Shown one piece after another: positions 746 to 51,325 of a stretch of DNA of 64,000 bases (positions are counted from its first letter, which is position 1; the number at the start of each line of letters is the position of its first letter). Below the pieces are notes generated by a model. The model was not told the DNA's origin. It worked only from the letters and a program-made list of their open reading frames with translations, and did not search any database. The position numbers and the translations under genes are program-made. The DNA comes from Acidobacteriota bacterium (lineage in GTDB: Bacteria; Acidobacteriota; Thermoanaerobaculia; Gp7-AA8). The DNA is taken from the NCBI GenBank assembly GCA_021781455.1, contig JAJXWV010000084.1, positions 1 through 64,000 of the forward strand, written 5' to 3'.

Positions 746-793
746 TGGTGGAGCTGAACGGGATCGAACCGATGACCTCCTGAGTGCGATTCA
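746..793 (-). repeat. attL, 48-bp direct repeat of the tRNA-Ala 3' end
   Basis: All 48 bases match 51250-51297. The repeat runs from the CCA end of the tRNA through the T arm and variable loop to the last bases of the 5' anticodon stem. Identity stops sharply at 793/794 on one side and 745/746 on the other. Confidence 0.93.
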
Positions 794-1235: not shown

Positions 1236-1304
1236 GAGCTCTCGGACAACAATCTCGCTTAACAACCAAGTCCAAAAGCGCGTGTTGCCATCCTGTCGTT
1301 CATC

Positions 1305-2311: not shown

Positions 2312-2374
2312 CTCGATGTCCTTTCTGGGCGGCCGGTCGAGCTCTTGCCGGAGTGACCGGCCACCCGGAATTTC

Positions 2375-3103: not shown

Positions 3104-3301
3104 CGAGGTCCTTTCTCGCTGTTCCGCCAGCGTCGCCGGCGGTGAGGGTTTCCTCACATCCGAGAGCCGCGGGTGAGTCCGCGGCTCTGAATGTGTTGAA
3201 CGAGAACGATGGACGCCTGCAGATTTCCCCGTTTCCTCCATGAGCATGAGAGCAAAGCAAAATTGGCGTGCTCAGACGTTCTCGTTTCGTGAGGACACGT
3301 C

Positions 3302-4768: not shown

Positions 4769-5047
4769 CCTCTCACGAGAAGTGAGCGTGAGTTGGCGAG
4801 AAGCGGTAGATTCTACGACGAACCTGCGGAGGCGTATGGCAGGCAGCACCAGAACCTCCACTCGACATCGATGCGCGCCACGGACCATTCCATGCAGTCG
4901 TGTCTTCAGGCGGCGCAGTTGGGTTGCACCGATGTGTCCTTGAAAGAACGACGGTAAAGACTCCGTTAGACCTGTGTCGAGCGCCGCATCTGCAACCCGT
5001 TCGCGAACTGCAGCGGCCGGCGATACGCAGATGAGAATCACGTACAT
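4757..5047 (-). CDS. cas2: Cas2-like protein
   Basis: A 96-residue protein, the usual Cas2 length, starting at ATG 5047 only six bases after the RT-Cas1 stop codon, with a GAAGG ribosome-binding site inside that junction. The fold pattern fits Cas2: a first strand MYVILICVSP, a helix, then LPSFFQGHI in the place of the family's SVFEG-type strand, a helix QLRRLKTRLHGMV and a strand RVEVLVLP. The acidic residue normally near the end of strand 1 is absent (CVSPAAAV), so it may be structural only, as Cas2 is in the Cas1-Cas2 integrase. Identification rests on length, pattern and position. The 3' end overlaps the convergent sigma-like gene. Confidence 0.7.
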   Translation of the reverse strand: MYVILICVSPAAAVRERVADAALDTGLTESLPSFFQGHIGATQLRRLKTRLHGMVRGAHRCRVEVLVLPAIRLRRFVVESTASRQLTLTSRERSRE

Positions 5048-5053
5048 ACGCCT

Positions 5054-8000: not shown

Positions 8001-8401
8001 GCGAGACCCGAGACGCTCGGCACGGCGTGATCACCAAGCGTGCGCCGTTGGTACTCCTTCCGCGCGATCGACGCCGGCAAGCCCCGCAGGCCGTAGCCGT
8101 GATCGCGCAGCCCGACGATCCCCGGAACGAGGAACCCCCGTAACGAGTCGGCGCGCGGCTCGACAAAATCCAGGAAGAATCGTTCCAACGCTTCAGAATC
8201 CGCCGGCCCCCACCGAAGCGGATTGAAGATCGAGACCGCGTTCAACGTCGCAGTCTTGAGCGCGAGTGCGGGCTCATTGATGATCGCGAGCGAGTACCCC
8301 GCGTCGAGGCGCTGGCTCACCCAACGATCGAGGGCGAGGGACGAGCCGTCCTCGACCGAGACCAGGTCGATTATTTTCCGTGCTGGAAGCGCTGCGATCA
8401 C
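5054..8401 (-). CDS. Reverse transcriptase-Cas1 fusion
   Basis: A 1115-residue fusion. Residues 1-265 form an N-terminal domain I cannot place; I see no Gly-rich loop of Cas6, the usual N-terminal partner. Residues about 270-640 are a group-II-intron-like reverse transcriptase with NADIRKCFDSIDHERL (Asp408), RGVPQGAPISPLLANIYL (458-475) and the catalytic YADD (492-495). Residues 655-745 are an Ala/Pro/Glu-rich linker. Residues 775-1100 are Cas1, with Glu945 (AAEGRAAAAYF), His1011 (IGLVHTD) and Asp1024/Glu1027 (LYDFVEEFR), so the integrase active site looks complete. RT-Cas1 proteins of type III CRISPR systems acquire spacers from RNA. Here the gene is coupled upstream to an ATPase (4-base overlap) and downstream to a Cas2-like gene. 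No array or effector genes are visible. Confidence 0.95.
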   Translation of the reverse strand: MIAALPARKIIDLVSVEDGSSLALDRWVSQRLDAGYSLAIINEPALALKTATLNAVSIFNPLRWGPADSEALERFFLDFVEPRADSLRGFLVPGIVGLRDHGYGLRGLPASIARKEYQRRTLGDHAVPSVSGLAGKLRRLMVERSGPWIGGALPEASQHYRLTTEGLNGAGTRLRIGCFLLSWLALVEGDARAVVLRLPAADNRISDSPLLRLINRLPVECLVTFEEQSLSDAARRWCASQIRKASTPAPVLEERRWSPPKAGPAVEKSITSDYDVATDRMHLQTAWQFMRNGSDASGIDGMTLAGFQKDLYGQLFYLDQELRSHTYEPMPLLRMYLLKANGEPRPIGIPTVRDRLVQNAVLGFLTARVDKTFLPCSFGYRPSRNAHMALVIAERNRNAGFSWVVNADIRKCFDSIDHERLFLALSTHIADRHLLHLIQKWVTAPVREDGVLLAPTGRGVPQGAPISPLLANIYLHPLDVYMIGRGHRWIRYADDILCFTRTEAEAQRALADLRGFVEGQLHLELKPGRTDITTFAAGVDFLGFTLRERSMYITPNRLDDFRSRLLRTAANEERTVPTRLARVNAQLGGFGAYFRRNEPLVVRQLTELDSWTRAVVGNVLHLPAEELGQIRSVFYRSERRTVRRDFYLDLLDLVDRGDAEPLRATTTPAPTEVSEPLAEPNEPDAAVLGAAVDEANALPDSTLEAAAAAPAEDVQESLQLDEAKSESRAIPERDMTPADHETSTSALFLSEGYAREDLREFLRLASAEDRPMLTADGTLHVGVHGCVMSKNSQHIVVRKNGASIFAAGLVSVKGIVVQAVGVTINSTLLRVLADRSIPVHFLNWKGEPYGEFTSPSKRSPAILRGQLRAFDNVTGVEVATSMLAAKCKNQLQLLRLYERYREKTDVTLAADLRRTIGAMLRNVEEIESCEGPTIDAVRGRLIAAEGRAAAAYFRAISALVGPEKGFSSRTRGRTAPDVVNGLLDYTYKLLYTRCHRALLAAGIDARIGLVHTDAERGKLSMLYDFVEEFRAIGADRPVVALLARGVTVQRNVGGKLSLPTRRKLLRAFERNLTLRCRYRDSRLPLHDIIDAQAKHLADVFAGGKTKRYRAFLYNH

Positions 8402-9105
8402 GCGGCGACGATGGCTTGCGGCGCCTCCACGGAGGTTGCCAGCAACGTCTCAACCGAAGCCCATGCGGGCTCGACCCACTGCGGCAAGACACCGGTACGA
8501 TCCTTGGCGAAGATGAGGCCATGCGGTTTGGTCAGCATCGATCTCGCCGACATGCGCCCTTCCGTGCGCGCCGCCTCGGCGCCGAGATAGAAGACGAAAT
8601 CGACGTCGCCTGAGACTTCATCAGCGAGTCTGCCCGGCAGACTGGGCCTGACCCTGACGACACGGCCATCCTTGTCGCGGCTCTCACGCGCGAGCGCCGT
8701 GAACACGACGTGCTGAGGAAGATGTGCGAAGGCGCGCACGACGCGCCTCGCGAGGCTGACCACTCGTCCCCACTCCTGGAGCGTCGTCGCGTGCGATGCC
8801 GCAGCGCCGGTGACCTCTTCGTGCGCAAGTCGTGCGACCTCGGTGAGCGAGTCGACGATGATCGTGTCGTAGTCCGACGCGTGCACCTTGGCTGTCTCCA
8901 CGGCCTCGCGAAGCTCCGCGATTGACCCGCACCGAACAAAGTCGAGGTCTCGACCTCGGACCGACAACAACCCGCCTTCACAGTCGATCACGAGCGGACG
9001 CGGGAACGTCGTCGCTGTCGTCGTCTTGCCCGACCCCGGCGATCCGTAGATGAGGAAACGGAGATGGTCGAACGACTCCGTCCGAGTGTTTCGAATGGGA
9101 AGCAT
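8398..9105 (-). CDS. AAA_24/Sak4-like RecA-fold ATPase
   Basis: A 235-residue single-domain P-loop protein. Walker A is GSPGSGKT (residues 21-28) and Walker B is TIIVDSLTE (Asp85); later strands HVVFTALARE and VDFVFYLG fit the AAA_24 phage nucleotide-binding family, whose best-known members are Sak4-like single-strand annealing ATPases. The start at ATG 9105 is chosen because family members begin shortly before the first strand; no good ribosome-binding site precedes it. The stop overlaps the RT-Cas1 start by four bases, so the two are made together. Sak4 proteins act in phage recombination. A role handling ssDNA or cDNA for RT-Cas1 is plausible but inferred. Confidence 0.8.
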   Translation of the reverse strand: MLPIRNTRTESFDHLRFLIYGSPGSGKTTTATTFPRPLVIDCEGGLLSVRGRDLDFVRCGSIAELREAVETAKVHASDYDTIIVDSLTEVARLAHEEVTGAAASHATTLQEWGRVVSLARRVVRAFAHLPQHVVFTALARESRDKDGRVVRVRPSLPGRLADEVSGDVDFVFYLGAEAARTEGRMSARSMLTKPHGLIFAKDRTGVLPQWVEPAWASVETLLATSVEAPQAIVAA

Positions 9106-9573
9106 GTCTGCGGGGGTGAGGGAGTAATTGGAGTGATGGGGTACTACGCGAAAACAGGCGTGGGCGACAAAGTAGCGACCAGCGGATGCCCTGACAAGAG
9201 ACCGCACTGGCAACGGCGGTGCGCGGCGGCCGAATCACCACAAAAGAGGCGGCCTCTATCCGCAGTATGGAGCGCTGGCAGATCCCATGAGCCGCCCAAA
9301 CGCCACAATGCGTATCCGCTTTACTGTTGGCGGGCGTCGTTGTTATGGCTTACAAGAGCGATAAGCGATAAGACCTTGCTTAGCCTGTGACACCAAAGGT
9401 CTCTCCGCACTAGAAACGATTAGCCACCGGGTGCGCTCTTATGGCCTAACGTTGATTTGCGATCAGTAAGAAATCGGCGTCCACATTACTCGGCGACGAT
9501 TTTCTAATGAAATATTGGGCTTTTACACCCCCGGACCGAAGCCCGGGGGTGTCGAAAACGAAAAATGAGAAAC
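9106..9573. other. Non-coding region upstream of the ATPase/RT-Cas1 operon
   Basis: This 468-base stretch has no convincing gene. It should hold the promoter of the leftward ATPase-RT-Cas1-cas2 operon. It is more AT-rich than the surroundings around 9300-9520 and ends in a strong hairpin (9525-9552). I looked for CRISPR repeats and found no 25-40 base unit present twice. Confidence 0.5.
9525..9552. terminator. Perfect 10-bp hairpin, possible terminator
   Basis: Stem 9525-9534 pairs exactly with 9543-9552 (acacccccgg / ccgggggtgt) around an 8-base loop. It lies 22 bases after the stop of the leftward secreted-protein gene. No T-tract follows on either strand, so it is a weak intrinsic terminator or a processing hairpin. 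Confidence 0.45.
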
Positions 9574-11244
9574 CTACTGCACGAGGATGTGGACGGTCCG
9601 CGTGATCGTCTGGCCGTTCTGGCCATAGATCGTGAGCGTGATCGTGTCGTTGCCCTTCGCGATCTGCGGGTCGTAATGGACGGTGAACGTCCCGCTTCCC
9701 GTTCCGGCATTGCCTCCGAACGGATTTCCGAGACTTGAGACGAGATTCCAGGACGTACCGTTGATGACCGTGACCGTGAGGGTCGATCCCGGACCGAAGA
9801 AGGCCACGGTGGTCGGATTGGCCGAGATGGACCCGTCGGGAGCCGGCGCCGTCACACTGACACTCGCCGAATCACTCGCCGTGCAGCCCCCGCCATTGCT
9901 GGCGGTGCCGCGCACGACCACCGATCCGCCCGCAGCCGCGGTCACGAGAACCGTGATGCTGCGCGAACCCTGGCCGCTCTGGATCGTGCCACCCGTGACC
10001 GACCAGCTGTAGCTGGCGGCGCCGAAAGGCATCGAAGCCGAGAACGTGGAACCGGCGACGGCGCTAGAGGGCGCCGAGACGGTGGCGTTCGGGGCGACAC
10101 AGGCCGGGACCACGGAGTACGACACGGTCTGCGACGTGGAGCCGCAGGGACCGTCGGGGGTGAGCGTGACCGACTTCGAGCCGGTCGTTGAGGAGACGTA
10201 CGAGTAGCCGCCAGTGGAGAGATCCACCGCGGTGCCCTGATTCGGGAAGTCGGTTCCCGTGAGGAGGCCGGTTCCCGTCTGGGTAGTCCAGCGAATCGTC
10301 TCGGTCGAGCCCGACGGAACGTCCCCAGCCAAGAGGCCGGAAACGGTCGCCTTGCCGGAAACCTTCAGGTTGACCTCGGAAAAGTCGTTCCGTCCGCGCG
10401 CGTCGGTTTCCCGAAGCGCGATCGTGGCGTAGCCGGCCGTGCCGAGCACGAACCCGGCCACGTTCGAGGTCGAACCTGAGACGTTGGCGTTGAAGAAGTC
10501 CCAGTGGTAGCTGGAGCCGTTCGAGGCCGGAGTCGTGACGGTGTAGCCGGTGGCGAATTCGCAAGGCGCTTGGCCATTCACTGAGAGAGCGGGGCTGATC
10601 GGTGCCGGCCGGACTGCCCGAGCTCGCATCGGAACAGCTTCCACGAATGCCACTGCCTGCCCATTCTGCGGCTCAATGGACGCCCATGCGTCCGAGAGCG
10701 ACACGCCCGCAGGAATCAGGGCCGCGATGGCCAGCCGCTGTGTGGATTCACCACTTCCGCTGACCGTCCGAGTCGTGAGCGGCACCTGGCTGCCCACGTG
10801 CTCGTAGACGACCACCTGCACTTGGCCGCCGAGCGTCGCGACGACGAGAGAACCAGACATCGAATGAATCGGGACGATCCCCTTGCGCGTCGCCTGCGCG
10901 ACCGGGAGGACCCCTGCACCACTCACAGTGATCGCGTCACTCGCGTCGATCGCGACGATCGCCGGTAGCTGCGGCGTGCCAAGGCTCGCGACGAGGCCAG
11001 GAAACGCCTGCGTTGCGCCCGCAGCCAGCGTGAAAGCCACCGCAGTCGGTGCCGACACTCCGACTGCTGGTAGGAGACGGATCGAGCCCGTGACCGCCGC
11101 CGCCTGGGGATTGGTGAGCGAGAGCGCGGTGTTGCTCCGAAGGACCACGAACGACGTGACCGTTGCTGCAGCCGCGGGTATGCCAACAGAGATCGCCAGG
11201 ATCGCCGTGAGGGCCGTCACGGCGCGGCGCAGGGTTCTTTCCAT
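9574..11244 (-). CDS. Secreted protein with Ig/PKD-like repeats
   Basis: A 556-residue protein starting at ATG 11244, where a signal peptide begins (MERTLRRAV, a hydrophobic core ILAISVGIPAAAA, likely cleavage after AAA). An upstream in-frame start would put 43 basic residues before the signal and is rejected. The mature protein is Ser/Thr/Gly/Val-rich beta structure. A first domain of about 200 residues is followed by Ig- or PKD-like modules with paired cysteines (PCGSTSQTVSYSVVPAC, GGGCTASDSAS) and a C-terminal beta-sandwich ending in VHILVQ. It is probably exported to the periplasm or cell surface. Its role on the element is unknown; adhesion is one guess. Confidence 0.7.
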   Translation of the reverse strand: MERTLRRAVTALTAILAISVGIPAAAATVTSFVVLRSNTALSLTNPQAAAVTGSIRLLPAVGVSAPTAVAFTLAAGATQAFPGLVASLGTPQLPAIVAIDASDAITVSGAGVLPVAQATRKGIVPIHSMSGSLVVATLGGQVQVVVYEHVGSQVPLTTRTVSGSGESTQRLAIAALIPAGVSLSDAWASIEPQNGQAVAFVEAVPMRARAVRPAPISPALSVNGQAPCEFATGYTVTTPASNGSSYHWDFFNANVSGSTSNVAGFVLGTAGYATIALRETDARGRNDFSEVNLKVSGKATVSGLLAGDVPSGSTETIRWTTQTGTGLLTGTDFPNQGTAVDLSTGGYSYVSSTTGSKSVTLTPDGPCGSTSQTVSYSVVPACVAPNATVSAPSSAVAGSTFSASMPFGAASYSWSVTGGTIQSGQGSRSITVLVTAAAGGSVVVRGTASNGGGCTASDSASVSVTAPAPDGSISANPTTVAFFGPGSTLTVTVINGTSWNLVSSLGNPFGGNAGTGSGTFTVHYDPQIAKGNDTITLTIYGQNGQTITRTVHILVQ

Positions 11245-11623
11245 GGATCGACTCCCGATTCGGACGCTGAGGCTGGTCGCGATTCTACCCCGCGCTCGCG
11301 TCGCATCGCTATCAGTTCGCGTGGTGTCACGCCGAGAACGTGGGCGAACGACCACGCTCGATAAAGTGCGCACCGATGTACCCTTGAAGGGGTTCGTCCT
11401 GGTTCAACGGTCGCGTGACCCTGCCGCCAACATCTCCGGCGCAACCTCCACGCTGCCCGTGTTGCAGCGGCGTCCTAAGAAGCGTAGAACGAGGCCAGTC
11501 TCGTTGCTCCTTTCGCGATCCAAGAGTGAGGCACCAGGCACACGCCTTGTAGCCTTTCGCGCCAGCCACATGGAAGATTCCGGCTTGGGCACGCGAGAAA
11601 GTTCCCGAGGACGCCGGGCCATC
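11245..11623. other. Intergenic region
   Basis: It separates the leftward secreted-protein gene from the tRNA-His fragment. I see no supported gene. It should contain the promoter for the secreted protein. Confidence 0.4.
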
Positions 11624-11671
11624 TGGTTGTGGCCCTGGAGGTCACGGGTTCGATCCCCGTAGCTCACCCCA
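11624..11671 (+). repeat. tRNA-His(GTG) 3' half, candidate second attachment site
   Basis: The bases run from the 5' edge of an anticodon loop (TTGTGGC, anticodon GTG) through the T arm (ACGGG, TTCGATC, CCCGT) to a C73 discriminator and CCA; C73 is a hallmark of tRNA-His. No matching 5' half (it should begin near GGTGAGC) lies upstream, so it is not a tRNA gene. It is 48 bases long and starts at nearly the same tRNA position as the tRNA-Ala att repeat. A tyrosine recombinase starts 166 bases downstream, the arrangement of an unintegrated attP site. Confidence 0.7.
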
Positions 11672-11837
11672 AATCGCCTGTTAGGCGCATGCAGAAGCGA
11701 TGATCGGCTCGTCACGGAGCTGACAGGCGCTTTTGCATGTGATCACCAGGTTAGGGCCACCTTGTGGTTCATACCCTGGCGCTCACCCTCCTCGGATCTG
11801 AAACGAGCGATGGAACTGCTCCTTACCCCCCATCCTC

Positions 11838-12800
11838 ATGTTCCAACCCGGCTCCCCATTTCCCCAGAATCCCGCTGAGCGGCAGATCCGCTTCCCCGAA
11901 GAACTCGACCCTCTCCACGCGCAGTTCGTGGCGTTCGTCCGCGGCTACCGAAACCACAGCCCGGCCTCCATCACGTGGTACCGGCAGGTCTACGGGGCCT
12001 TCCGGAAGTTCCTGTTCGCCCAAGGCGTGCAGGCGATCGACCGCACGTGCTCGCACCTGATCGAGCAGTGGATCGCAGCCGCACGCGCTCGCGGCGTGTC
12101 CCCCTTCACCGCCAAGTCCTACTGGCAGGGCCTGCGCCCCTTCTTCGTCTACCTCGACGAGCACGAGGGTTTCCCGAGCCCCTACCGCGCGATGAAGCCA
12201 CCGGCATCTCCCGATGCGCTTCCGAAAGCGCGGACGGAAGCCGAATGCCTGCGCATCCTCGAGGCGGCGCGGTCTGCGGACTGGACGAATCCCTACGAGG
12301 GAGCGCGCGCGACCGCCATGCTTGCAATGGCGCTCTACGCCGGCCTCCGCAGAAACGAGATTCTGAAACTCAGCTTCGCCGACGTCGACATGGTCCAGGG
12401 CTCGATCCGGATCGTGCGCGGCAAGGGTCGCGGCGGCGGCAAGGACCGCGTCACGTACATCGCACCAGAGCTCAAGCAGATCCTCGAAAGCTACCTCGAC
12501 GAACGTCGCCGCCGTCGGCTCTTGAGCGTGGAGTTCTTCACGTCGCAGCGGAGCGGCAAGGGCCTCTCGGCCATGACGCTCCGCCGGATCGTTGCGCGGG
12601 TGCGCACGACGTCTGGTATCCCGTTCTCGCTGCACGCGCTCCGGCACTCGTTCGTGACGACGCTGCTCCGGCGAGGCGTGCCCATTCACGTGGTGCGCGA
12701 GCTCGCGGGGCATGCAGACATCACGACGACCGCGAGGTACACGCGGGTGTTCGAAGAGGACAAGCGAGAACACATCGCGCGCCTCGCATTCGTGCGTTGA
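11838..12800 (+). CDS. Tyrosine recombinase (site-specific integrase)
   Basis: A 320-residue XerC/D-type recombinase. An N-terminal SAM-like core-binding domain (residues about 28-115) precedes the catalytic domain with Arg171 (AGLRRNE), Lys around 196-202, His266-x-x-Arg269 (HALRH), His292 (GHAD) and nucleophile Tyr301 (TARYTR). All catalytic positions are present. It lies just downstream of the tRNA-His 3' half, so it may recognise that site. Its 3' end converges on another recombinase 14 bases away. The integrase that explains the present insertion is the one at 49650. Confidence 0.9.
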   Translation: MFQPGSPFPQNPAERQIRFPEELDPLHAQFVAFVRGYRNHSPASITWYRQVYGAFRKFLFAQGVQAIDRTCSHLIEQWIAAARARGVSPFTAKSYWQGLRPFFVYLDEHEGFPSPYRAMKPPASPDALPKARTEAECLRILEAARSADWTNPYEGARATAMLAMALYAGLRRNEILKLSFADVDMVQGSIRIVRGKGRGGGKDRVTYIAPELKQILESYLDERRRRRLLSVEFFTSQRSGKGLSAMTLRRIVARVRTTSGIPFSLHALRHSFVTTLLRRGVPIHVVRELAGHADITTTARYTRVFEEDKREHIARLAFVR

Positions 12801-12814: not shown

Positions 12815-13870
12815 TCAGATGTCCACGGGCAAGTCAACATCGAGCTGCAGCTTCCGGGTTTCCTGCTCGTACTCCGGCTCGAAGACATGGCTGTACCGCG
12901 TGAGCATCGACAAGCTCTGATGCCCCATCAGGTCCATGCTCACGCGGTCGGCGACGCCGGCCTGCCGAAGCAAGGTCGCGTACGTGTGCCGCAGCATGTG
13001 GGGAGAGACGCGGCAACCGGCGATGAGCGAGAGCCGCCGGAACAGGCGCGCGATCGTCACGGCAGATGCAGGTCGGTCGTCGTTCTGGAGGGTGATGAGC
13101 TGGGGATGCGTCCGGCGCGGCACGGCGCGGTCGCGTTCGCGCAAGTAGAGCGCGAGAATCGTCCGAAGCTGCGGCGGTAGGTACGCGGTCCGCGGCTTGC
13201 CGCCGTTCTTCCCTTTCCCGCGGCGGATGACGACGCACCCCTTTTCGAGGTTGAGGTCGCCCGTTCCGAGCGCCAGAACTTCCCCGCGTCGGAGGCCCGC
13301 ATAGAGCATGAGCCCGACGATTGCGAGGTTGCGCGCGCGTAGAAGCGGCGACCGCCATCGGAAGTGCGTCACGGCGGTGATGAGCGTCTCTGCCTGCGCG
13401 CGTTCAAGAACCCGCGGTCGCGGGCGGCCTGCGCGCGGGGGCAGGACGAGCGCGAACGGATTCACCATGCCGTATCCCGTTTCCAGGCGCTGGATGACGG
13501 CGGCGACGGCACCGAAGTACGTTCGCACGGTCGTATGCGACACGCGCCGCTCGGTGCGGAGCCAGCGAACCCACGTATCGATCGCGAGTAACTGCTGTTC
13601 TACATCGCCGGAGAGGAACCGGTCCGCGAGCTGTGCCTCCGAAAGAAACCGCGTGAACAGGTGGAGTGACTGCTCCCACCAGCGGAGCGTCAATGCACTC
13701 AACCCGCGTCCCGCCGCGTCCTCTCGAATCGCACGGTGTGCAACGTCCACGAATTGCCCGAGCGTCTGAAACTGCAACGGCCGCATGGGCACGGCGGCGC
13801 GATACATCGGCCGCAGTTGCAAACTGGCGGGCAGGCGGCTGAACGCCGGGAGCAAGCGCGCGTCCTGCAC
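12815..13870 (-). CDS. Tyrosine recombinase
   Basis: A 351-residue tyrosine recombinase with Arg in YAGLRRGEVLAL, HMLRHTYAT, LMGHQS and the nucleophile in LTRYSHVF. The start at GTG 13870 lies three bases after the VirD4-like gene stop, so the two are probably co-transcribed; internal Met residues near 22-30 would give a start closer to the core-binding domain. It differs clearly from the neighbouring convergent recombinase. It could resolve dimers, act in inversion or be a second half of a two-recombinase integration system. The sequence does not decide between these. Confidence 0.88.
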   Translation of the reverse strand: MQDARLLPAFSRLPASLQLRPMYRAAVPMRPLQFQTLGQFVDVAHRAIREDAAGRGLSALTLRWWEQSLHLFTRFLSEAQLADRFLSGDVEQQLLAIDTWVRWLRTERRVSHTTVRTYFGAVAAVIQRLETGYGMVNPFALVLPPRAGRPRPRVLERAQAETLITAVTHFRWRSPLLRARNLAIVGLMLYAGLRRGEVLALGTGDLNLEKGCVVIRRGKGKNGGKPRTAYLPPQLRTILALYLRERDRAVPRRTHPQLITLQNDDRPASAVTIARLFRRLSLIAGCRVSPHMLRHTYATLLRQAGVADRVSMDLMGHQSLSMLTRYSHVFEPEYEQETRKLQLDVDLPVDI

Positions 13871-13873: not shown

Positions 13874-15493
13874 CTAGAACTGGTGAATGCGAGACGCCGG
13901 TTGCTGCGCGAGCCGCGCTTCTCTTCGAGCACTCCGCTCCGCGATCGCCCTCACCATCGCGTTCTCCGCCGCTTCCTGCGTGTCGTCCAACACCTTCAGT
14001 CCCTTTTGCCGTGCCATCTCGTTGTCGATCTGCCTGCGCAATCGCGCCGGCGTGAACGGCAGCTCAAGCGGCGGGAGAACTTGAATGCGCCGCGCCTTGT
14101 ACGGCCGATCCTTCGCGTAGAAGTAGCACGCCCCGACCGGAAGACGTGCGAGCTCGCGCGTGCGCCACGCGACTTCCTCCGCAGGTGTCAGCAGCGGGTC
14201 TTCGATTGCGTCGTTCGGGCGTGTTTGCTCGCGCCAGACGCTACCGAGCGGCTCCAGGATGTCCGGGGCGAGCGCTTTGGCTTCCGAGTACGGGAGACGG
14301 AAGAAGAACTGCGTGCCGGTGTTCCCGAGCAAATGCGGTCGCGCACGCGCCGGGAACAGGGACAGCCCTTGGGCGGCGAGCGTCACGAACACCTTGTACT
14401 TGCGCGCAGCGACGAGGAATTCTTCGAGTCCGCTCTCCGCGCCGGCGAGCACGTGGGCCTCGTCGAGGAGCAGCGCGTACGGTTTCCGCCGATCCACGTT
14501 CAGGGTCTCGCGGCGAAGCGTTGCGAGCTGGCAGACGTTCACGAGCATCCGGCCCATCACTTCGGCGGGAGGCCCGAGATACCCTTTGGCGAGATTCACG
14601 AGAACCGTGTCGCCGCGTTCGATCGCGCCGAAGAGGTCCACCGTCGATGTCGCCTGCCCGAGAAACCGTTGCACGGCGACCGAGCCGAGGAACGGCTCCA
14701 GCTTGTTCAGCACGGCGGAAACATATTGCTGGTCCTGCGCGCCCCACCGTTTCGCGAAGTACGTTCGCGTTTCCTCGGACGCGGTCGCGAGGGTTCGCTC
14801 GCGAACGGCCGGAATGAGGAGGAAACTCGCGAGATCCACGAGTGACATCGGCGCAGCGCTCTCGATGAGCGCCCGGAGCGCCCACCGCGTGACCTCGTGC
14901 ACGCGGACCCCCCATGCCCACGAGGAAGCGACCTCGTCGACGTAGAGCCGTTTGAGGACACCCACCAGCAAATCGACCTGCCGGCCGATATCGACGCCTA
15001 ACATCGGCGCGAGCGGATTCCACCCCGGGAGGAGATCGGGACGCGTGAAGTCGATGAGCACGAGCCGCTCGGGTTTCTCCACGAGCGCCCACGCGGCGAC
15101 GCGCGTGAAGAGATCGCCGTGGAGATCCAGCATCGTGAAGGGCCGCTTCGCGCGGAGATGCGAGACGGCGAGCGCTTCGAGCAGGCTTGATTTCCCGGTA
15201 CCCGTGGCGCCGAGCACCAACGCGTGATGCTGGAGATCCGACGCCGCGAGATGAACCGCGATCGACTCGCCGCCGGGCACGCGATACGTCGCAAACGCGA
15301 AGCCGGTCCGGGCGCGATGTGCCTGCACGAACGGATCACGCGCCCAGAAGCGGTTCCACCCCTCACGCGTCCGTGACGCTGCCGTCTCAAACCGGAGCCG
15401 GATCGTCTCCCGCCTGTAGGCGAGGCGGCGGAGCACAAACGTCGTACTCGCCCCGAATGCGATCGCCGCAATCGCAGCGCCAAGAACCCTCAT
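13874..15493 (-). CDS. VirD4/HerA-like DNA-translocating ATPase
   Basis: A 539-residue protein with a short N-terminal hydrophobic segment (residues 3-22), Walker A GATGTGKS (95-102) followed by a TMLDLHGD strand, and Walker B LLLDEAH (near 340-346). A late TLAAQGLSLFP segment resembles the sensor region of TraD/TraG and HerA proteins. Such ATPases couple DNA substrates to a conjugative channel or pump DNA. The start overlaps the upstream gene by four bases (ATGA). A second, distinct ATPase of this class is at 44038-45663. No VirB4 partner is seen, so it may deliver DNA to a non-standard machine. Confidence 0.8.
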   Translation of the reverse strand: MRVLGAAIAAIAFGASTTFVLRRLAYRRETIRLRFETAASRTREGWNRFWARDPFVQAHRARTGFAFATYRVPGGESIAVHLAASDLQHHALVLGATGTGKSSLLEALAVSHLRAKRPFTMLDLHGDLFTRVAAWALVEKPERLVLIDFTRPDLLPGWNPLAPMLGVDIGRQVDLLVGVLKRLYVDEVASSWAWGVRVHEVTRWALRALIESAAPMSLVDLASFLLIPAVRERTLATASEETRTYFAKRWGAQDQQYVSAVLNKLEPFLGSVAVQRFLGQATSTVDLFGAIERGDTVLVNLAKGYLGPPAEVMGRMLVNVCQLATLRRETLNVDRRKPYALLLDEAHVLAGAESGLEEFLVAARKYKVFVTLAAQGLSLFPARARPHLLGNTGTQFFFRLPYSEAKALAPDILEPLGSVWREQTRPNDAIEDPLLTPAEEVAWRTRELARLPVGACYFYAKDRPYKARRIQVLPPLELPFTPARLRRQIDNEMARQKGLKVLDDTQEAAENAMVRAIAERSARREARLAQQPASRIHQF

Positions 15494-16263
15494 GGCCGCA
15501 GGGGTGAGATGTGCGAGGAGAGGACGAGGGCCGCGAGGACGATCCCTGCGAGCAACAACCCGAGAATGGCTTGCACGAGCCAGAAGCGCAGGTACGGGAT
15601 TGACCGGAAACGGAGGCGGAGGCGCGCAAACCGGCCGGGAGGCGGCGGGTCGGAGACGATGAAGACATCACCGTCCTGCGGGTCGCGAACGAGGAGCGAC
15701 GCACGGCGCAGGCGCACGAGGTGGACACGCGCGTGCCATCGCCCGCGGAGCTGCGCCGCCTCGACAATGCGATCGAGGTGAATCTCGTCGTCGGCCTGCT
15801 CCGACGCATGAAAGAACAAGAACACCGTGAAACTCGTGCGGCCGACGAGCGGGAGGACCTGTACGATCCAGGAACTCGGAAGATCGCGATGAACGCGCGG
15901 CGCGAACGCCTGCATTTCGCGCTCCGGAAGCTCGACCGCCACCGTATCCGCGCCCCAGAAGTCTTCGATGTGGTAGACGACCAGCCGCTCTCTCGTGAGC
16001 CGGTCAAGCCACCGGATCACGCGCCGGTTCGGCACGCGCAGAATCCACGCAAGATCGTGCACCTTGACGGTGAGGAGGCCGGTCCTCTGCCGCAAGGCAC
16101 GTACGACGAGCATCAGGAGCGCCTCATCCCGCCCGATTGTCTTCACCAGAGCAAAGAAGTCGGCGAGATCGACAGCGACGGTCGCAAGTCCCTCCGGGGG
16201 CGCTGCACGCGGCCCGAGGAAGCGCAGACGCGTCTCGTCCTGGAGGGCATGGTCACGACGCAT
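15490..16263 (-). CDS. Winged-helix protein with C-terminal membrane segment
   Basis: A 257-residue protein. Residues about 45-100 look like a winged helix-turn-helix (LLMLVVRALRQRTGLL, then WILRVPNRRVIRWLDRL). The C terminus has one strong hydrophobic helix (LRFWLVQAILGLLLAGIVLA) followed by a short tail. It overlaps both neighbours in a three-gene leftward unit with the VirD4-like ATPase. A membrane-anchored DNA-binding adaptor for the ATPase would fit, but this is inference. Confidence 0.6.
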   Translation of the reverse strand: MRRDHALQDETRLRFLGPRAAPPEGLATVAVDLADFFALVKTIGRDEALLMLVVRALRQRTGLLTVKVHDLAWILRVPNRRVIRWLDRLTRERLVVYHIEDFWGADTVAVELPEREMQAFAPRVHRDLPSSWIVQVLPLVGRTSFTVFLFFHASEQADDEIHLDRIVEAAQLRGRWHARVHLVRLRRASLLVRDPQDGDVFIVSDPPPPGRFARLRLRFRSIPYLRFWLVQAILGLLLAGIVLAALVLSSHISPLRP

Positions 16264-17056
16264 GCGAGATCGTGGGAGGAAGCGCAGCCGCCTCGTCGAC
16301 GAGACCCAGGTCGACGCGCCGCATCGCGGATTTTGCGATCCGGCGCAGGTACGGGTCGGCGATCGCGTCGGGAGCCGCCATGCTCGTCACGATCGTCGGG
16401 CGGGTGAGATCGGCGCGGCGCCGAATGATGTCTGCGGTCGTCGCTGACGCGAAGTCGACGCGTTCGACAATGAGGAGCGGAGCGGCCAGCGCATTGCGCA
16501 CGTCCGCAGCATTCGTCTTTTGATCAGCGCGGAGGAAGAACAGCCGCACTTTCGCTCCCTCGAACGCGACGCGCAGTGCGCGCACGACCACGGCCAAGGC
16601 GGAAGCGTCCGGCCCGCAGACGTACAGGCCAGATCCAGACTGCATCGTCTCTGCTGCAAAGTGATCGACGTAGCGGCGCAGGTCGTGCGTCACGCGCGGC
16701 GGAATGGCGTCGCTCGCAAGGGCGTCGACCGGATCAACACCCTCGGGCGTGGCGCGGCACTCCGTGAAGAAGTGCACCCAGAGGAGATCGCGGATGAAGC
16801 GGTGCTCGCCGAAGTGCTGCACGATCTTGACGAGCATCTGTTTCGACGGGCTGCGCTCTCCGGTTCGCAGCCGGATGAGCGCCGTCTCATCGACGCCAAG
16901 CTCACGCGCGAGATCGCGCAGCGTTGCGCCCTGCGATTGCAGGAAGGCGAGGAGTTCCGTGATGAGGCGAGCAGGACGACGCGGCACGGGGGCGTAGGGA
17001 TCACGTGTGCGCTCATTCTCTTCTACGTATCGAGAACGCGAACGCCACGAGCGCAC
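16253..17056 (-). CDS. HTH protein with degenerate P-loop domain
   Basis: A 267-residue protein from GTG 17056. Residues about 30-75 are an XRE-type helix-turn-helix (ATLRDLARELGVDETALIRL, then GERSPSKQMLVKI). The C-terminal 130 residues alternate strands and helices like a RecA-type ATPase (LYVCGPDASALAVVVRAL, LLIVERVDF, RPTIVTSMAAP), but the expected GxxGxGKS/T loop reads GPDASALA, so it should not bind ATP in the usual way. It begins the leftward unit feeding the VirD4-like gene. It may be a partition- or targeting-type DNA-binding protein. Confidence 0.6.
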   Translation of the reverse strand: MRSWRSRSRYVEENERTRDPYAPVPRRPARLITELLAFLQSQGATLRDLARELGVDETALIRLRTGERSPSKQMLVKIVQHFGEHRFIRDLLWVHFFTECRATPEGVDPVDALASDAIPPRVTHDLRRYVDHFAAETMQSGSGLYVCGPDASALAVVVRALRVAFEGAKVRLFFLRADQKTNAADVRNALAAPLLIVERVDFASATTADIIRRRADLTRPTIVTSMAAPDAIADPYLRRIAKSAMRRVDLGLVDEAAALPPTISHAS

Positions 17057-17425: not shown

Positions 17426-18445
17426 ATGCAGCCACAAGTGTCGATCAGAAACGAAGAGCCGGGACACTACCTCCCGACAGACATGAATAATCCGCCATCG
17501 TCGCTGCCGGTCAGATCGCGTCGCGAAGCGCAGGCCTCTGGAACGTTCCCACCCCTGGATCGTTCCGGACTTCGTTCCGCGGCTCCATCCTCCACCGCGC
17601 CGGTGATCGCTCCAATCGGAGTGCTTCGCGACGTCGGCGTGATCGAAGGTCTGCGCCGGCGAGAAACGATGATCGTGTATCTCACCGTCCTCTGCCGGCT
17701 CGTCACCTATACGCAGATCGCCCGCATATTCTTTCGCGACGGGAATCCCTCGGGAGTCCGCAAAGCGGCCTATCACCTCGAACAGCTCGGGTGGGCAAAG
17801 CGATGGAACACGACCAGCCGGTCGGGCCGGATGGGGCATCTCATGCCGACCAGGCAAGCGACGGATATCGTCTTGCGCACACTGCGCAGCAAGACGGGCG
17901 CACAGCCGTGGGCACGCGCTGTCTCCCTCATGCTCCCGCGCGCAAGCCGCGGCCCTCTCGATTTGAGAGCGCAGCGTCCGAAATGGTTCGCGCATCAATA
18001 CGAGGTCAATCAGCTCGCAACCGCAATCATCCTCGCCCGCAGGCCGCTCTGGATCTCGACGTGGGATTCGCCCTTCCCGCCGAGCCCTGATCCCGGCCTC
18101 TCGCTGCCGCAGCCAGACTATGTCAGCGTCGAAGACACCCCCGCGGGAACTACGGTGATCTTTGGTGAGCACGACCGCGCCTCAGAGCCACTCGACCGAT
18201 TCATCGAGCGCAAGCTCCGCACGTATGCGCGTCTCTCGGGGCGCGCAGCGGAGATCCTCGGCGTCGGGTCCTTTCGTGTCGATGTCACCGTCGTTGATCC
18301 GATCGCGCAGGCGCCACGACGCCGGCTGAAAGAACTCTCCGACGCCGCCCGCGAATTCGGCGTGGCCGACCTGTTCCGCTTCAATCTCGCTGGACAGTTC
18401 GCAGCCGAACTCGACGCGAGCCAGTGCTATGTCCAGGAGTCCTGA
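17426..18445 (+). CDS. Replication-relaxation family protein
   Basis: A 339-residue protein matching the replication-relaxation pattern. A winged-helix half (residues about 75-145: LTVLCRLVTYTQIARIFF, then GVRKAAYHLEQLGWAKRW) is followed by a nuclease-like half with KWFAHQYEVNQLATAII, LPQPDYVSVED and a LDRFIERKLRTYARL helix. Members occur on integrative elements and plasmids and are thought to act at replication or mobilisation origins. The first 55 residues are Pro/Ser-rich and an internal Met at residue 20 could be the start. A second member is at 40512-41417. Confidence 0.7.
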   Translation: MQPQVSIRNEEPGHYLPTDMNNPPSSLPVRSRREAQASGTFPPLDRSGLRSAAPSSTAPVIAPIGVLRDVGVIEGLRRRETMIVYLTVLCRLVTYTQIARIFFRDGNPSGVRKAAYHLEQLGWAKRWNTTSRSGRMGHLMPTRQATDIVLRTLRSKTGAQPWARAVSLMLPRASRGPLDLRAQRPKWFAHQYEVNQLATAIILARRPLWISTWDSPFPPSPDPGLSLPQPDYVSVEDTPAGTTVIFGEHDRASEPLDRFIERKLRTYARLSGRAAEILGVGSFRVDVTVVDPIAQAPRRRLKELSDAAREFGVADLFRFNLAGQFAAELDASQCYVQES

Positions 18446-28516: not shown

Positions 28517-31953
<3,437 letters not shown>

Positions 31954-40332: not shown

Positions 40333-40515
40333 TCAGCGGCGGCCAAGGTCGTGGAGGCACCGCACGCAGTAGAAGCTTTCCCGCTCGCCGTTCCTGCCGT
40401 GCTTGGAGCATGTCGCGCGCCTGCACCGGGAGCAGTCTGCGTATGCCGGCGCATGGCTGTCGGGCTGCTTCGGGTCGTTATGGACGCAGATGTAGCAGAC
40501 CTGGATCGGCATCAT
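40333..40515 (-). CDS. Small zinc-ribbon protein
   Basis: A 60-residue protein with three metal-binding pairs (CYIC, CSRCRRATC with a following His, and CVRC). Its ATG overlaps the stop of the replication-relaxation gene (ATGA), so the two are co-translated. It could bind DNA or protein; nothing more specific is visible. Confidence 0.65.
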   Translation of the reverse strand: MMPIQVCYICVHNDPKQPDSHAPAYADCSRCRRATCSKHGRNGERESFYCVRCLHDLGRR

Positions 40516-41417
40516 TTCGCTCCTCGGTCGGTCGCCGAAAAGTCTTTCTGAAAGACCTGCCGGGCCAGCGCGGCGAGCCCCGGCCGGCCGGGATCTTTTG
40601 GCAGCTCAGCGACCACGACGGCGGCGCGAAGATTCAGATGCGTAAGCGCTTTCTCGATCGCCAGGACTCGGCGCGCCCCGATCGTGAGGAAGAGAATCGT
40701 CGCCGGGGCGTCGGCGGCGAGCGCCGCGAGCGTCGTATCGAGGGCCTGGAGTTTCTCGACAACGATTCGGAGCCGCTCGGTGGCGCGATCGACCTCAATG
40801 GCGACGAGCGGTGCCCCGGGGCGCTTCGGCACGGCGAGGAGATCGGGGATGCTGACCCCGGCCTTCGTGCCGAGGGTTCGCCGGGCGTGCCAGCACGGGA
40901 GCGCGTCGATCGCCGGCGCGAAGATGCGGTAGAGGACCAGCAGATCGACGATCCAGAGCGCGTGCGCGACGTCTTTGTCTGCCGTAGGGCGCGCGGCGAC
41001 GTAGATCTGCGATTCCGGAGCGAGGTCGTGCTCACGGATGTAGTCGGCGCCGGCCACTGTGAGGCGCAGCCGGTTGATGCCGACCTTTCGCCACCGATAG
41101 ATCGTGATGAGCCCGAGGCCGGCGAGCCGCCGAACGCAGCGCGAGAGGGCGACTTCTGACTTCCCCGCAAAGAAGAGCGCGTGAAGGTGGTACTGCGCGA
41201 CCTCGCGTGCCAGTGCGATGAAGACAAGCACGAGGTGATCGCGCGCTGAAAGCGCAGCCCGCGCCCGCGGATCACTGGAGGTACGGGAGATCTTGGGCCG
41301 CTGCGTTGTTCCGGGTGTCGTCTCGCAGGTCGAAGGGACACTTGAATGTGCGGAGACGTTGTTCGAACGCAGCGGCGCCAAAGATGCTCTCTCGGCGTGA
41401 TCGGATCCTTCCGCCAT
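40512..41417 (-). CDS. Replication-relaxation family protein, second copy
   Basis: A 301-residue protein. After about 60 low-complexity residues comes a winged-helix half (residues 60-120: LHALFFAGKSEVALSRCVRR, then LAGLGLITIYRW) and a nuclease-like half (AHALWIVDLLVLYRIF, then SIPDLLAVPKRPGAPLVAIE, with D and E in PD-(D/E)xK-like spacing). It is distantly similar in layout to 17426-18445 but clearly diverged. It may serve the element's transfer or replication origin. Confidence 0.65.
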   Translation of the reverse strand: MAEGSDHAERASLAPLRSNNVSAHSSVPSTCETTPGTTQRPKISRTSSDPRARAALSARDHLVLVFIALAREVAQYHLHALFFAGKSEVALSRCVRRLAGLGLITIYRWRKVGINRLRLTVAGADYIREHDLAPESQIYVAARPTADKDVAHALWIVDLLVLYRIFAPAIDALPCWHARRTLGTKAGVSIPDLLAVPKRPGAPLVAIEVDRATERLRIVVEKLQALDTTLAALAADAPATILFLTIGARRVLAIEKALTHLNLRAAVVVAELPKDPGRPGLAALARQVFQKDFSATDRGAK

Positions 41418-43727: not shown

Positions 43728-44045
43728 TCAGCGCTTCCCATCGAGCACCCGGAGCGTGCTCCCGCAACCGGTGCAAGTGACCGTCGAGGATGTCGTTCGA
43801 CAGAAGCTGCAATAGACGAGTGATCCCGCCTCGGTCGCGCCGCAGACCTGACACTTCGCGATGCGCGCGAGCTCGTTCTCGGTCTCGCAGGCAGGGCACG
43901 TGATCGTGCCGCGACGGACAGGCGCCAGACTCCGCCAAGCCGCCCTGCGGGCGAGCCACCACCGGAGCAGGAGCCACGGCGCGGCGAGCGCATAGAGAAG
44001 CGACTCCGCGATGGCTCGCGCGATGTAGGCGGTGATCTTATTCAT
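43728..44045 (-). CDS. Membrane-anchored zinc-ribbon protein
   Basis: A 105-residue protein. A hydrophobic helix (residues about 12-30, ESLLYALAAPWLLLRWWL) is followed by four CxxC knuckles (CPAC, CQVC, CSFC, CTGC), enough for two zinc sites facing the cytoplasm. The start overlaps the end of the ATPase gene by eight bases. A membrane adaptor for the ATPase is plausible. Confidence 0.7.
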   Translation of the reverse strand: MNKITAYIARAIAESLLYALAAPWLLLRWWLARRAAWRSLAPVRRGTITCPACETENELARIAKCQVCGATEAGSLVYCSFCRTTSSTVTCTGCGSTLRVLDGKR

Positions 44046-45663
44046 CGTCGTCTGGCTCCTCGCCCAGGCCGAGGGCAGAGCGAAGGTCGCGAACACTGCC
44101 CGGCGGCCGGCTGGTGGATGGCGACGAGGCGCGTACCTCCCGTGACAGGCTGGCTTCGTAGTCGTCGAGCAGCGCCGCGGCCCGACTGACCTCGATCGTG
44201 GAGGTCGGCGTGATCTCGCGGTGGAAGATGTCGTCTAACTCCTCTACCGGGATGCCGGCGATGCGCTCGGGGCGTTCGAGGTCGAGCGTGCGCACACGAA
44301 GCGCCGGTTGGCCCTTCGCCCAGAAGATGGCTTCCTGTCGCGGCAACGATTCGATGTCACGAAGGAACTCGCGCTTCCGGTCTGCCTCCGATCGCCGATC
44401 CTGAGGCTCCCGCAACACGTGGGGATAGAGCAGTTCGCCGACCGACTTCGGCGATTGGAAGGCGGTCACAGTAACGGCGTTCAGGAGCATCTCGCGCATC
44501 GCGTGTTGCGGGAGCGATTCGAGCGATTGGGCGAAGAACTCGATGTTGACGTTGAGGGAGCGGAGCATCCGGAGGCCATTCAAAACGAGGTCGAGAAGGT
44601 CCGTCGCCATGGTGAGGAGGGCGACCGCTTCTTCGAGGACGATCGTCAGCGGAACGCTCGGGTCGCGGCGCGATGCGGTGAAAAGCTCGTCCGTCAGCAC
44701 CCAGTTCGCCAGCGCGTACGCGATCGATGGCGGCAGGGTGTTCGACACCCCGGCGTCGACCAGGGTGATGGGCGCGTGCTGGCGGAGCCCCAGGGAGGCA
44801 ATGACATGCGGCGGCAGCCCCAGGATGAGGCGCACGAGCGAGTAGCCGAGCTCGATTGCGACGCGGCGGATGAACGCCTCCAGCGTCTGCGGCGCAATCC
44901 GCTGCGGCAGATGCGCGAAGAAGTCGATGAGGTCTCGCGAGGTGAGCTTCTCGACGAGGCGGAGACGGAAGGACTCGTTCCGGCAGAGGAGCTCGACGAA
45001 CATCAGCACGAACGTGTGCTCCGGCACCTCGCCGATCGCGCGCAGCGTCTGCACGAGGAGGAAGTGCTGCGCTTCGGACCAGGGCGAGCGGCTGGCACGG
45101 ACGAGCAGATCGGCCTTGATCCGCGCCTGGTACTCGACGGAGATGTCGCTCATGATCGCGAAGGCCGGACGCAGGGTGATGCGTGAGCGCGACCAGCCGA
45201 CGAAGTGCACACTCTCCCGGAGCACTTCGCGGACCGCCGCATTGCCGCGGAGAAACATCAGAGCGATGAAGAGCTTCAGCAGTTGGGCGGTCTCACTCTT
45301 CACGTCGACAACCGTCGTCTCGAAGCCGAGGACGTGCGAACCCTGTTCCGCAATCCGCCGGCAGGCGCGAATGAGGATGCGATAGAACTGCAGCGCCTTG
45401 AACCATGACTTCCCGAATCCGCTTGCGCCAAGAATGAGCGCATGTCGAAAGATCGTCGCGAGATCGACACCGACCACGCGGTCCCCTGCTGTCCGAAACA
45501 GCGATATCGGACATGTCCCTGCCAGCGCCACGAGGATGCTCGCAAGGTTGGGCGCAGCTCCGACGGCGCGCATGAGTCGACGTGCTTCGTTTTCGATTGC
45601 ACTCCGTGCGTCGATCGTCTTTCGCGCGTCGAGGAGACGCTGCTGTTCGCGCGCGCGGCTCAC
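44038..45663 (-). CDS. Second VirD4/HerA-like ATPase
   Basis: A 541-residue protein with Walker A GASGFGKS (79-86), a following VVDVKSETAQLLKLF strand and a Walker B-like IVLEEAVALL in which Glu-Glu replaces the usual Asp-Glu. A late NIEFFAQSLESLP segment fits the sensor region of TraD/HerA-type pumps. It lacks obvious membrane helices; anchoring may come from the neighbouring membrane proteins at 43728 and 45660. With the ATPase at 13874 the element has two DNA-pump-like motors, whose division of labour is unclear. Confidence 0.75.
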   Translation of the reverse strand: MSRAREQQRLLDARKTIDARSAIENEARRLMRAVGAAPNLASILVALAGTCPISLFRTAGDRVVGVDLATIFRHALILGASGFGKSWFKALQFYRILIRACRRIAEQGSHVLGFETTVVDVKSETAQLLKLFIALMFLRGNAAVREVLRESVHFVGWSRSRITLRPAFAIMSDISVEYQARIKADLLVRASRSPWSEAQHFLLVQTLRAIGEVPEHTFVLMFVELLCRNESFRLRLVEKLTSRDLIDFFAHLPQRIAPQTLEAFIRRVAIELGYSLVRLILGLPPHVIASLGLRQHAPITLVDAGVSNTLPPSIAYALANWVLTDELFTASRRDPSVPLTIVLEEAVALLTMATDLLDLVLNGLRMLRSLNVNIEFFAQSLESLPQHAMREMLLNAVTVTAFQSPKSVGELLYPHVLREPQDRRSEADRKREFLRDIESLPRQEAIFWAKGQPALRVRTLDLERPERIAGIPVEELDDIFHREITPTSTIEVSRAAALLDDYEASLSREVRASSPSTSRPPGSVRDLRSALGLGEEPDDDE

Positions 45664-49649: not shown

Positions 49650-50870
49650 TCAGAAGGAAAACTTCGCATCAACAATCCCTCGTGCTTCCTCGGCCGCGGC
49701 GACTTTGTCCGCGCGCGCATACCGTAGAGTGCTCCGAACGTCAGAATGGCCGAGCATTCTCGCCGTGGTAGTTAGGCTGGCGCCCGACGAAACCAGAAGA
49801 CTCGCAAGCGTGTGCCGCGCGTCATGGATGCGGAATGGGTGAGCGATTCGCGCAATCGTCTTCGCGATTGCGAAGCAGCGCTGGATGCGCTTGATGCAGA
49901 ACGGCTGGCCCTCTTCGTCCGTGAACACGAACTCGGAGATGAGGGGTCGCTTCCGGCATGCGAGAAGTTCTTGCCGAAGAGCGCGCGCGATCGGAAGGAC
50001 CACGTCGACCTCTTTCTTCCTGGTTGTGAGCTCAATCGTATTCGTCTGAAGATTCACCTCGGACCAGCGGAGCAGGCGCGCGTCTTCGCGCCGAAGGCCC
50101 GTTGTGAAAAGGCACAGGAAATATGGCTTGAGCCAGCGATAGCGGACGAAGTACTCAGCTGCGGCTTCGCTGCCCGGCCGGATGCCTGCCCCGATCCGGC
50201 GTTTTCCGCCGAAGCTGCGTGCGCCGCGGGTGCGACCGACCTTCTCGCGCGCCGCCCCTCTCGGCATCACGCTCTTGAGGTAGTCGTCGAAGGCGGCGCG
50301 GTCGTCGAACGCGGCAAGGAATCGTTCGCGTTCTTCATCCGAGAGCTCATTTTTCGGGAGCGTGGTCTTGAGTGCCCGGATCGGCCGGCGGAATGGTGAC
50401 TCGTCGAGGATCTCCCAGTCGACCGCCTTGGAGACGATCGCCTTGAGCGTATTGACGTAGGCGTTGATCGTCGCTGGCGAGAGGCCTTCTTCGAGGAGCC
50501 GTTTCCCGTACATGATCACCGTCCCCGACGTGATCTGATCGAGTCGCATCTGCCCAAACTCTGGCAGCAGCCGTCCTTCGAGCGCGTGGCGGTAGCCGCG
50601 GATGGTCGCGGGCCGAAGACCGGCGGTGATCGTCTTGAAGTAGCCGTCGTAGAACGCGCGGAGGGTGGGGATTTTCCCGTTGGTCTCGGTGCGCTTCCAC
50701 AAGCGGCGGAAGGCGTGAAACCGGTCACGCACCTTCTGCTCGTTGTCGGAGACGAACGTGAGCTGTTTCTTTTTCTGTGATCGCTTGAGATACACGCAGA
50801 AGTGGGCAACGCCGGTCCGTGGATTCCATGTGCAGCCGCGCTCGAGCCGGCGGACGCCTTTCCGCTTCAC
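49650..50870 (-). CDS. int: Tyrosine integrase of the element
   Basis: A 406-residue tyrosine recombinase from GTG 50870, whose start overlaps the excisionase stop (GTGA). Domains: an AP2-like arm-binding N terminus (residues 8-60, GCTWNPRTGVAHFCVYLK), a SAM-like core-binding domain (about 65-165) and the catalytic domain with Arg260 (TGLRRED), Lys285 region, His349-x-x-Arg352 (IHDARH), His375 (LGHSD) and Tyr384 (TLRYAR). It sits 380 bases from the intact tRNA-Ala gene, so it is the enzyme that inserts the element there. Confidence 0.93.
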   Translation of the reverse strand: MKRKGVRRLERGCTWNPRTGVAHFCVYLKRSQKKKQLTFVSDNEQKVRDRFHAFRRLWKRTETNGKIPTLRAFYDGYFKTITAGLRPATIRGYRHALEGRLLPEFGQMRLDQITSGTVIMYGKRLLEEGLSPATINAYVNTLKAIVSKAVDWEILDESPFRRPIRALKTTLPKNELSDEERERFLAAFDDRAAFDDYLKSVMPRGAAREKVGRTRGARSFGGKRRIGAGIRPGSEAAAEYFVRYRWLKPYFLCLFTTGLRREDARLLRWSEVNLQTNTIELTTRKKEVDVVLPIARALRQELLACRKRPLISEFVFTDEEGQPFCIKRIQRCFAIAKTIARIAHPFRIHDARHTLASLLVSSGASLTTTARMLGHSDVRSTLRYARADKVAAAEEARGIVDAKFSF

Positions 50871-51079
50871 GCTCGTTTCGGCGTGCGCTTCGGCCGCGGC
50901 CTCGCCGCCCGTGCTGCGACCGCCCGCTCGACCGCGTCGAGATCGTAGAGGATCAGCCGGTCGCTGATCCGCTGGACCGGGAGCGGGAGCCAGCTCTTCT
51001 CCCACTTGGCCAGGGTCGCGCAGCGGACGCCGAGTTGTCTTGCGAGGACGTGGCGTGCAATCAGTCGTCGTTCTGTCAC
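50867..51079 (-). CDS. xis: AlpA/excisionase-like regulator
   Basis: A 70-residue protein from GTG 51079, behind GGAGG. A MerR/AlpA-type helix-turn-helix is visible (RHVLARQLGVRCATLAKWEK, then RISDRLILYDLDAVE), followed by a basic tail. Small proteins of this type directly upstream of an integrase act as recombination directionality factors. Its stop overlaps the integrase start. Confidence 0.8.
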   Translation of the reverse strand: MTERRLIARHVLARQLGVRCATLAKWEKSWLPLPVQRISDRLILYDLDAVERAVAARAARPRPKRTPKRA

Positions 51080-51249
51080 GAGGAACCTCCGGCTCGATGG
51101 TGCCGGAGGCCGGCGCGACTTCACGCAAATGCGGCGGAACGTCCCGGGCTGCCGGAAAAACAGCAGCGCACACAGCATTGGGGATGGAGGATCGAGGGGA
51201 CGAGACGGGGGGCGTCTCGTCTAAGTGGCTGGAAACAAAGGGGGTGAAC

Positions 51250-51297
51250 TGGTGGAGCTGAACGGGATCGAACCGATGACCTCCTGAGTGCGATTCA
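51250..51297 (-). repeat. attR, 48-bp direct repeat within tRNA-Ala
   Basis: Identical to 746-793. The crossover lies somewhere within these bases. The tRNA remains intact because the element supplied the same 3' half. Confidence 0.93.
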
Positions 51298-51325
51298 GGC
51301 GCTCTCCCAACTGAGCTACAGCCCC
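51250..51325 (-). tRNA. tRNA-Ala(CGC)
   Basis: Seventy-six bases including CCA. The acceptor GGGGCTG pairs with CAGCTCC and contains the G3-U70 wobble pair diagnostic of alanine tRNA. The anticodon stem CCTGA/TCAGG closes the loop ATCGCAC, anticodon CGC. One T-arm pair is mismatched. It is the insertion target of the element. Confidence 0.95.

Follow-up and report, generated by a model that had tools for sequence, protein, structure and literature searches.

A tRNA-His half-site beside a second tyrosine recombinase in an acidobacterial tRNA-Ala island: a probable second integration system kept in unrecombined form

The question raised by this locus is why a genomic island that is already held in one tRNA gene should carry half of another, placed directly before an intact recombinase gene. 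The window analysed here, a stretch of 64,000 nucleotides from an Acidobacteriota bacterium, contains an island of 50.5 kb held in tRNA-Ala and marked by a perfect 48-bp repeat (746-793 / 51250-51297). The whole tRNA-Ala(CGC) lies at the near end of the island (51250..51325, minus strand) and a displaced 3′ fragment, which perfectly reproduces the last 48 bases of that gene, at the far end (746..793, minus strand), while int1, the integrase by which the island is presumably anchored in the chromosome, is encoded between these bounds beside the whole tRNA (49650..51173, minus strand). The first-pass annotation, made from the sequence alone, had placed the element in tRNA-Ala, and the repeat together with the position of int1 bears this out. 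The int1 end corresponds exactly to the tRNA islands catalogued by Islander, in which a tyrosine integrase lies beside a fragment starting in the anticodon region, 3760 islands having 3′ fragments and 159 having 5′ fragments (159/3919), with 2083 anticodon-centred sites (PMC4383910). The present island differs from these in possessing a second integrase, the tRNA fragment of which lacks a complete counterpart in the genome, and in belonging to a group of loci where 5′ halves account for 3/10. On the int1 side a second HerA-like ATPase (44038..45663, minus strand) and a second Replic_Relax protein (40512..41417, minus strand) are also encoded, both of which recur in relatives. An integrative and conjugative element would have a relaxase and a type IV secretion system; the ORFs scanned included Replic_Relax proteins and HerA/TrwB-like ATPases and no secretion-channel gene. 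The flank beyond tRNA-Ala was strongly diverged in the relatives compared for an empty site. Solitary fragments of tRNA-Ala(CGC), of 44-48 bp, were observed in several genomes of the family and, as they recur in this manner, the gene looks like an integration hot spot.

The tRNA half in question occupies 11624..11671 on the plus strand. Its 48 bases represent the 3′ half of a tRNA-His, from an anticodon loop (TTGTGGC) to a discriminator C followed by CCA, and include a T-arm (ACGGG-TTCGATC-CCCGT) with 5/5 pairs; neither ARAGORN nor Rfam detected a whole tRNA at 11624-11671, and the 5′ half is absent. Following a gap of 166 bp is int2 (11838..12800, plus strand), a Xer-like tyrosine recombinase of 320 aa with core-binding and catalytic domains, the ORF of which is intact and specifies the R..H.R..H..Y catalytic residues. 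Anatomy and intact ORF thereby confirm what had first been noticed, namely a 48-base tRNA-His 3′ half without its 5′ half before a complete tyrosine recombinase, and the arrangement is that of the attP-like core of a second integration module: a partial tRNA, starting from the anticodon loop and without the remainder of the gene, next to an integrase gene. The half is not there by chance, since a 24-base piece of it, which has a single match in the window and one genome-wide with up to 3 mismatches, was matched in 0 of 100 shuffles of the window (≤3 mismatches). In the contigs examined, a single strand had approximately 0.007 five-pair T-arm-like motifs per 400 bases. At ten further tyrosine-recombinase loci of the same genome there was no solitary half within the flanks examined, the only T-arm motif near them belonging to a whole tRNA-Gly.

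It had been stated at the outset that this would be a resident nested element instead if the half recurred elsewhere and bounded a nested insertion. The double complement of ATPase and Replic_Relax genes does suggest two origins for the island, as would suit an element bounded by two tRNA-His halves, but the half is unique in both window and genome within 3 mismatches. Since a composite island with a nested resident element requires two copies of the inner att site, this candidate was rejected, and we regard it as very improbable indeed. The composite island CGI48 of Shewanella, the inner island of which can excise by its own att sites (PMC8978831), resembles the present one in having two integration modules, the outer one in a tRNA gene; it differs from the present case, where there is only one inner site, in unrecombined form, and where many islands share the arrangement.

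The int2 module comprises several further genes. The first of these, absent from the first-pass annotation, specifies a second Xer-like tyrosine recombinase (12815..13870, minus strand), referred to here as the partner, which is convergent with int2. It is followed by genes for a HerA/TrwB-like DNA-translocating ATPase (13874..15493, minus strand; 50-60% identical in relatives), a conserved protein with no family match (15490..16263, minus strand), a helix-turn-helix protein (16253..17056, minus strand) and a Replic_Relax (PF13814) protein (17426..18445, plus strand). The HerA/TrwB likeness of the ATPase should be read as a class assignment only, the structure model being of low confidence (pLDDT 63). 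Both recombinases scored highest as Xer-like, yet far below the XerC/XerD cut-offs: int2 reached 144 and 134 bits as XerC and XerD against curated cut-offs of 335 and 330, and 73.5 bits as an integron integrase against a cut-off of 265. The solved structures nearest to int2 are archaeal Xer, XerA, XerD and XerH, and its predicted structure is without an N-terminal arm-binding domain. Among the matches listed from phages and plasmids none exceeded 34% identity to int2, and viral contigs yielded weak relatives only. A recombinase-in-trio (RIT) element would have three adjacent recombinase genes, and the int2 locus has two. Elsewhere, on the minus strand of G000:C61 (9618-14556), three tyrosine recombinases are encoded on one strand within 5 kb and perhaps represent such an element.

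The FtsK translocase acts for XerC/XerD, the site of which is dif. The module resembles that system in that two Xer-like recombinases adjoin a gene for a HerA/FtsK-class ATPase, and departs from it in having a tRNA half-site where that system has dif, and in the scores given above. This likeness raises the possibility of a recombination platform, serving for cassette capture or exchange, for the half-site joining of two elements, or for dimer resolution with the HerA-like ATPase acting in an FtsK-like manner. That the recombinases are Xer-like rather than phage-integrase-like, that int2 is modelled without an arm-binding domain and that a translocase gene is its neighbour would all agree with such a role; the comparisons among loci that follow bear on it from both sides.

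Relatives of int2 were sought by phylum and class searches together with a scan of one genome per species, and were found in Acidobacteriota only, several of these being named Thermoanaerobaculia; most are 40-50% identical. It was established that a tRNA half lies just upstream of int2 in 10/10 int2-family loci found, window included. There are seven 3′ halves and three 5′ halves, with a whole tRNA beside int2, as an int2-integrated copy would have, in none. The 3′ halves are of His in the window, Thr-GGT in G168C36 and L086/G409C14, Ala-TGC in G342C13, Gly-CCC in G029C13 and Pro-TGG in L087, with one of no assigned isotype at the very start of int2 in L128, and the 5′ halves are of Thr-GGT (G342C54), Pro-GGG (L130) and Arg (G168C45). 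Six amino-acid families are thus represented (His, Thr, Ala, Gly, Pro and Arg), and the halves are broken in the anticodon region wherever the break could be assigned. Anticodon loops have been reviewed as overlap regions, and a 5′-half attB is recorded in archaea (PMC8371274). As integrated junctions, two of the 5′ halves were ruled out: the DNA past the half in G342C54 is island backbone, 94% identical to G168C36, and the contig of G168C45 has no tRNA-Arg. The occurrence of halves at all ten loci, together with the single genomic copy of the His half, supports the earlier description of the site as attP-like. At G029C13 (121510-126372) two 3′ fragments of a tRNA-Gly(CCC) come after the gene itself, which suggests small tandem islands.

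Both recombinases are intact in the window and most other loci, at 40-60% identity, the weakest member being L128, where int2 has an in-frame stop codon. Genes for int2, the partner, the HerA/TrwB-like ATPase, the conserved protein and the Replic_Relax protein are kept together in five or six other loci, with no Replic_Relax match seen in G342C54, and among 396 genomes drawn from the phylum the four with the module ATPase were exactly the four with int2. The partner lies upstream of the half-site in G168C36 and G342C54 and downstream in the other loci, and, because its side of the site varies, the half-site goes with int2. Both tRNA ends could be mapped for four islands of 44 to 67 kb. At one end each has an entire tRNA gene and at the other a 45-48 bp fragment that repeats it perfectly, the gene being tRNA-Ala for the window, tRNA-Met for G342C13 and tRNA-Pro(GGG) for both G168C36 and G409C14. 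The int2 module is enclosed in 4/4 of these, its half always being of another isotype than the ends. A relative of int1 was recognised beside the tRNA in three of the four, G342C13 being the exception, and the second set of ATPase and Replic_Relax genes is found on the int1 side of several islands. The proposal of two integration specificities is supported. The words used for it at first, 'spare' or 'a fusion of two elements', proved too weak: since module and half occur in ten loci and in every mapped island, the two-integrase design is a standing trait and no single accident.

The sequences of the halves give some indication of their origin and of the recombination for which they are equipped. 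In six of the seven 3′ halves every T-stem pair is Watson-Crick, the seventh having one G-T pair, and because pairing is kept although the stem sequences differ among loci, the halves derive from working tRNA genes and have undergone no decay. The anticodon loop is flanked by perfect inverted repeats of 13 bp in L087 and 10 bp in L130, with the tRNA on the right in one and on the left in the other; a tyrosine-recombinase core, having two binding sites, would be expected to look like this. Further inverted arms flanking the core were significant in four loci (0/200 shuffles); those in the window were not significant by the shuffle test.

It was further examined whether the halves match the tRNAs of their hosts. 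The fragments on the int1 side are identical to a tRNA of the host. Comparison of int2 halves with host tRNAs of the same isotype covered five of the ten loci, and in all five they differ: 29/45 positions are alike for the His half of the window genome, 34/42 for the Thr half of G409, 35/41 for the Thr 5′ half of G342, 25/29 of the bases compared for the Pro half of G401, and 33/42, with one gap, for the Gly half of G029. As a piece of the host tRNA-His, or of any other of the 45 host tRNAs, the His half was rejected, the best host match being to tRNA-Gly(CCC) over 33 bases. No match with ≤3 mismatches in 34 bases was found in 149 genomes of the class apart from the site itself. The host tRNA-His implied as the target by the first-pass annotation does not fit the half, and the check it proposed, for copies of the element in tRNA-His of relatives, encountered no tRNA matching the half among these genomes. 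For both reasons the His half is no working attP for the chromosome of the present host, but may serve as one elsewhere.

Such a mismatch could also be a sign of age, the island having once acquired another element along with its attP, with the module now functionless. The His half matches no tRNA of the host or the host's class and the recombined form occurs in none of the ten loci, as a fossil would have it, but both recombinases have stayed intact at 40-60% identity in the window and most loci, the T-stems are kept, the module is present in every mapped island and, as described below, was exchanged between two near-identical ones. The in-frame stop in int2 is confined to L128. We consider a fossil distinctly unlikely.

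The exchange concerns G168C36 and G342C54, which are from different genera and both have a tRNA-Pro(GGG) end. The two islands are 94-96% identical over both ATPase genes, and identity drops to 67% at the end of the HerA gene, exactly where the cassette of partner, att site and int2 is located. The int2 and partner proteins of the two are 62-64% identical, and a Thr 3′ half in G168C36 stands against a Thr 5′ half in G342C54. The cassette has been exchanged as one block, at least at its left border, the only one that could be mapped, since similarity has not returned by the end of the contig. The pair represents a natural instance of near-identical islands that differ in their targeting cassette. 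In addition, a cargo of approximately 20.5 kb is present in one and absent from the other of these islands of some 95% identity (G168C36 80986/101448 versus G342C54 23093/23094). Presence and absence of cargo at one sharp junction, like the occurrence of 5′ as well as 3′ halves, would suit the recombination platform introduced above. That junction, however, is away from the half-site and has no half-site sequence, and the half-sites are tRNA-derived with kept T-arms, as expected for the restoration of a tRNA target. A platform is on this evidence unlikely.

The reading we consider probable is that 11624-11671 is the unrecombined, attP-form site of a complete second integration system, carried by an island that already resides in tRNA-Ala by way of int1. 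According to this model, int2 and the partner would occupy the two arms of the inverted repeat in the anticodon stem, with strand exchange in the 7-bp anticodon loop, the target tRNA would be rebuilt after integration from the half that the element carries, and the module would integrate the whole island. As the matching tRNA is not there, the module would be unused in the chromosomes where it was found, and with its cognate tRNA absent from this host it would lie idle, representing a second address for another replicon or host. We conclude that the second integration system is conserved and exchangeable, and that the chromosome of the present host does not contain its target. The island family regularly carries, in other words, an intact second targeting cassette for a tRNA that its host lacks. 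If the cassette is active, a solitary half would be the record of, or the ticket to, another replicon, and the reading of such halves could reveal where islands travel outside the chromosome. In the part of the literature covered, we found no account of a group of islands in which a second tRNA half-site, unrecombined and accompanied by its own two recombinases, is regularly kept. The tripartite ICEs of Mesorhizobium, in which a single element is assembled from three separate chromosomal regions by three recombinases (PMC5882170), are similar in that several site-specific recombinases serve one mobile element; here there is one contiguous island with one used and one unused site.

A more specific version of this second address, which we put forward as speculative and rather unlikely as it stands, is that int1 serves the chromosome and vertical inheritance while the int2 cassette docks into tRNA genes on phages or megaplasmids with tRNA arrays. 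It would explain why the halves mismatch the host tRNAs checked, vary in isotype and are never found recombined in chromosomes. Tn7 is a DDE transposon for which targets are chosen by TnsD or TnsE. The parallel would be a safe chromosomal address plus a second one for other replicons, with the difference that two tyrosine-recombinase systems would do the targeting. Phage and plasmid tRNA-His genes align with the His half at 76-86%, and the best matches of this half include tRNA-His in plasmid tRNA arrays and in phages, collections which hold little else; similarly, the best phage match of one Thr half is to a jumbo phage of an acidobacterium, from a collection that holds little else. The best full-length database matches to the halves are of 82-86% only, and the exact cores of four halves had no match in viral contigs. 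These matches are suggestive but biased, and the proposed vehicle is best treated as a lead only. The Pseudarthrobacter plasmid pACHL01 (L185) has a total of forty tRNA and tmRNA genes in 8 kb that is almost empty in the gene table.

The island has further cargo. At 5054-8401 on the minus strand a fusion of reverse transcriptase and Cas1 of 1115 aa is encoded, with the Cas1_IIIb model as its best PADLOC match; a direct-repeat scan of 746-11640 found no CRISPR-like array. Defence cargo is located at 28517-37669 (plus strand) and 24530-27247 (minus strand), and comprises an HmaA/HmaB/HmaC set and a CBASS pair, the latter consisting of an oligonucleotide cyclase and a SAVED-HNH effector. Elsewhere in the window, a repeat of approximately 72 bp at about 52153-52227 is present in dozens of copies genome-wide, often as close inverted pairs, and is REP/BIME-like.
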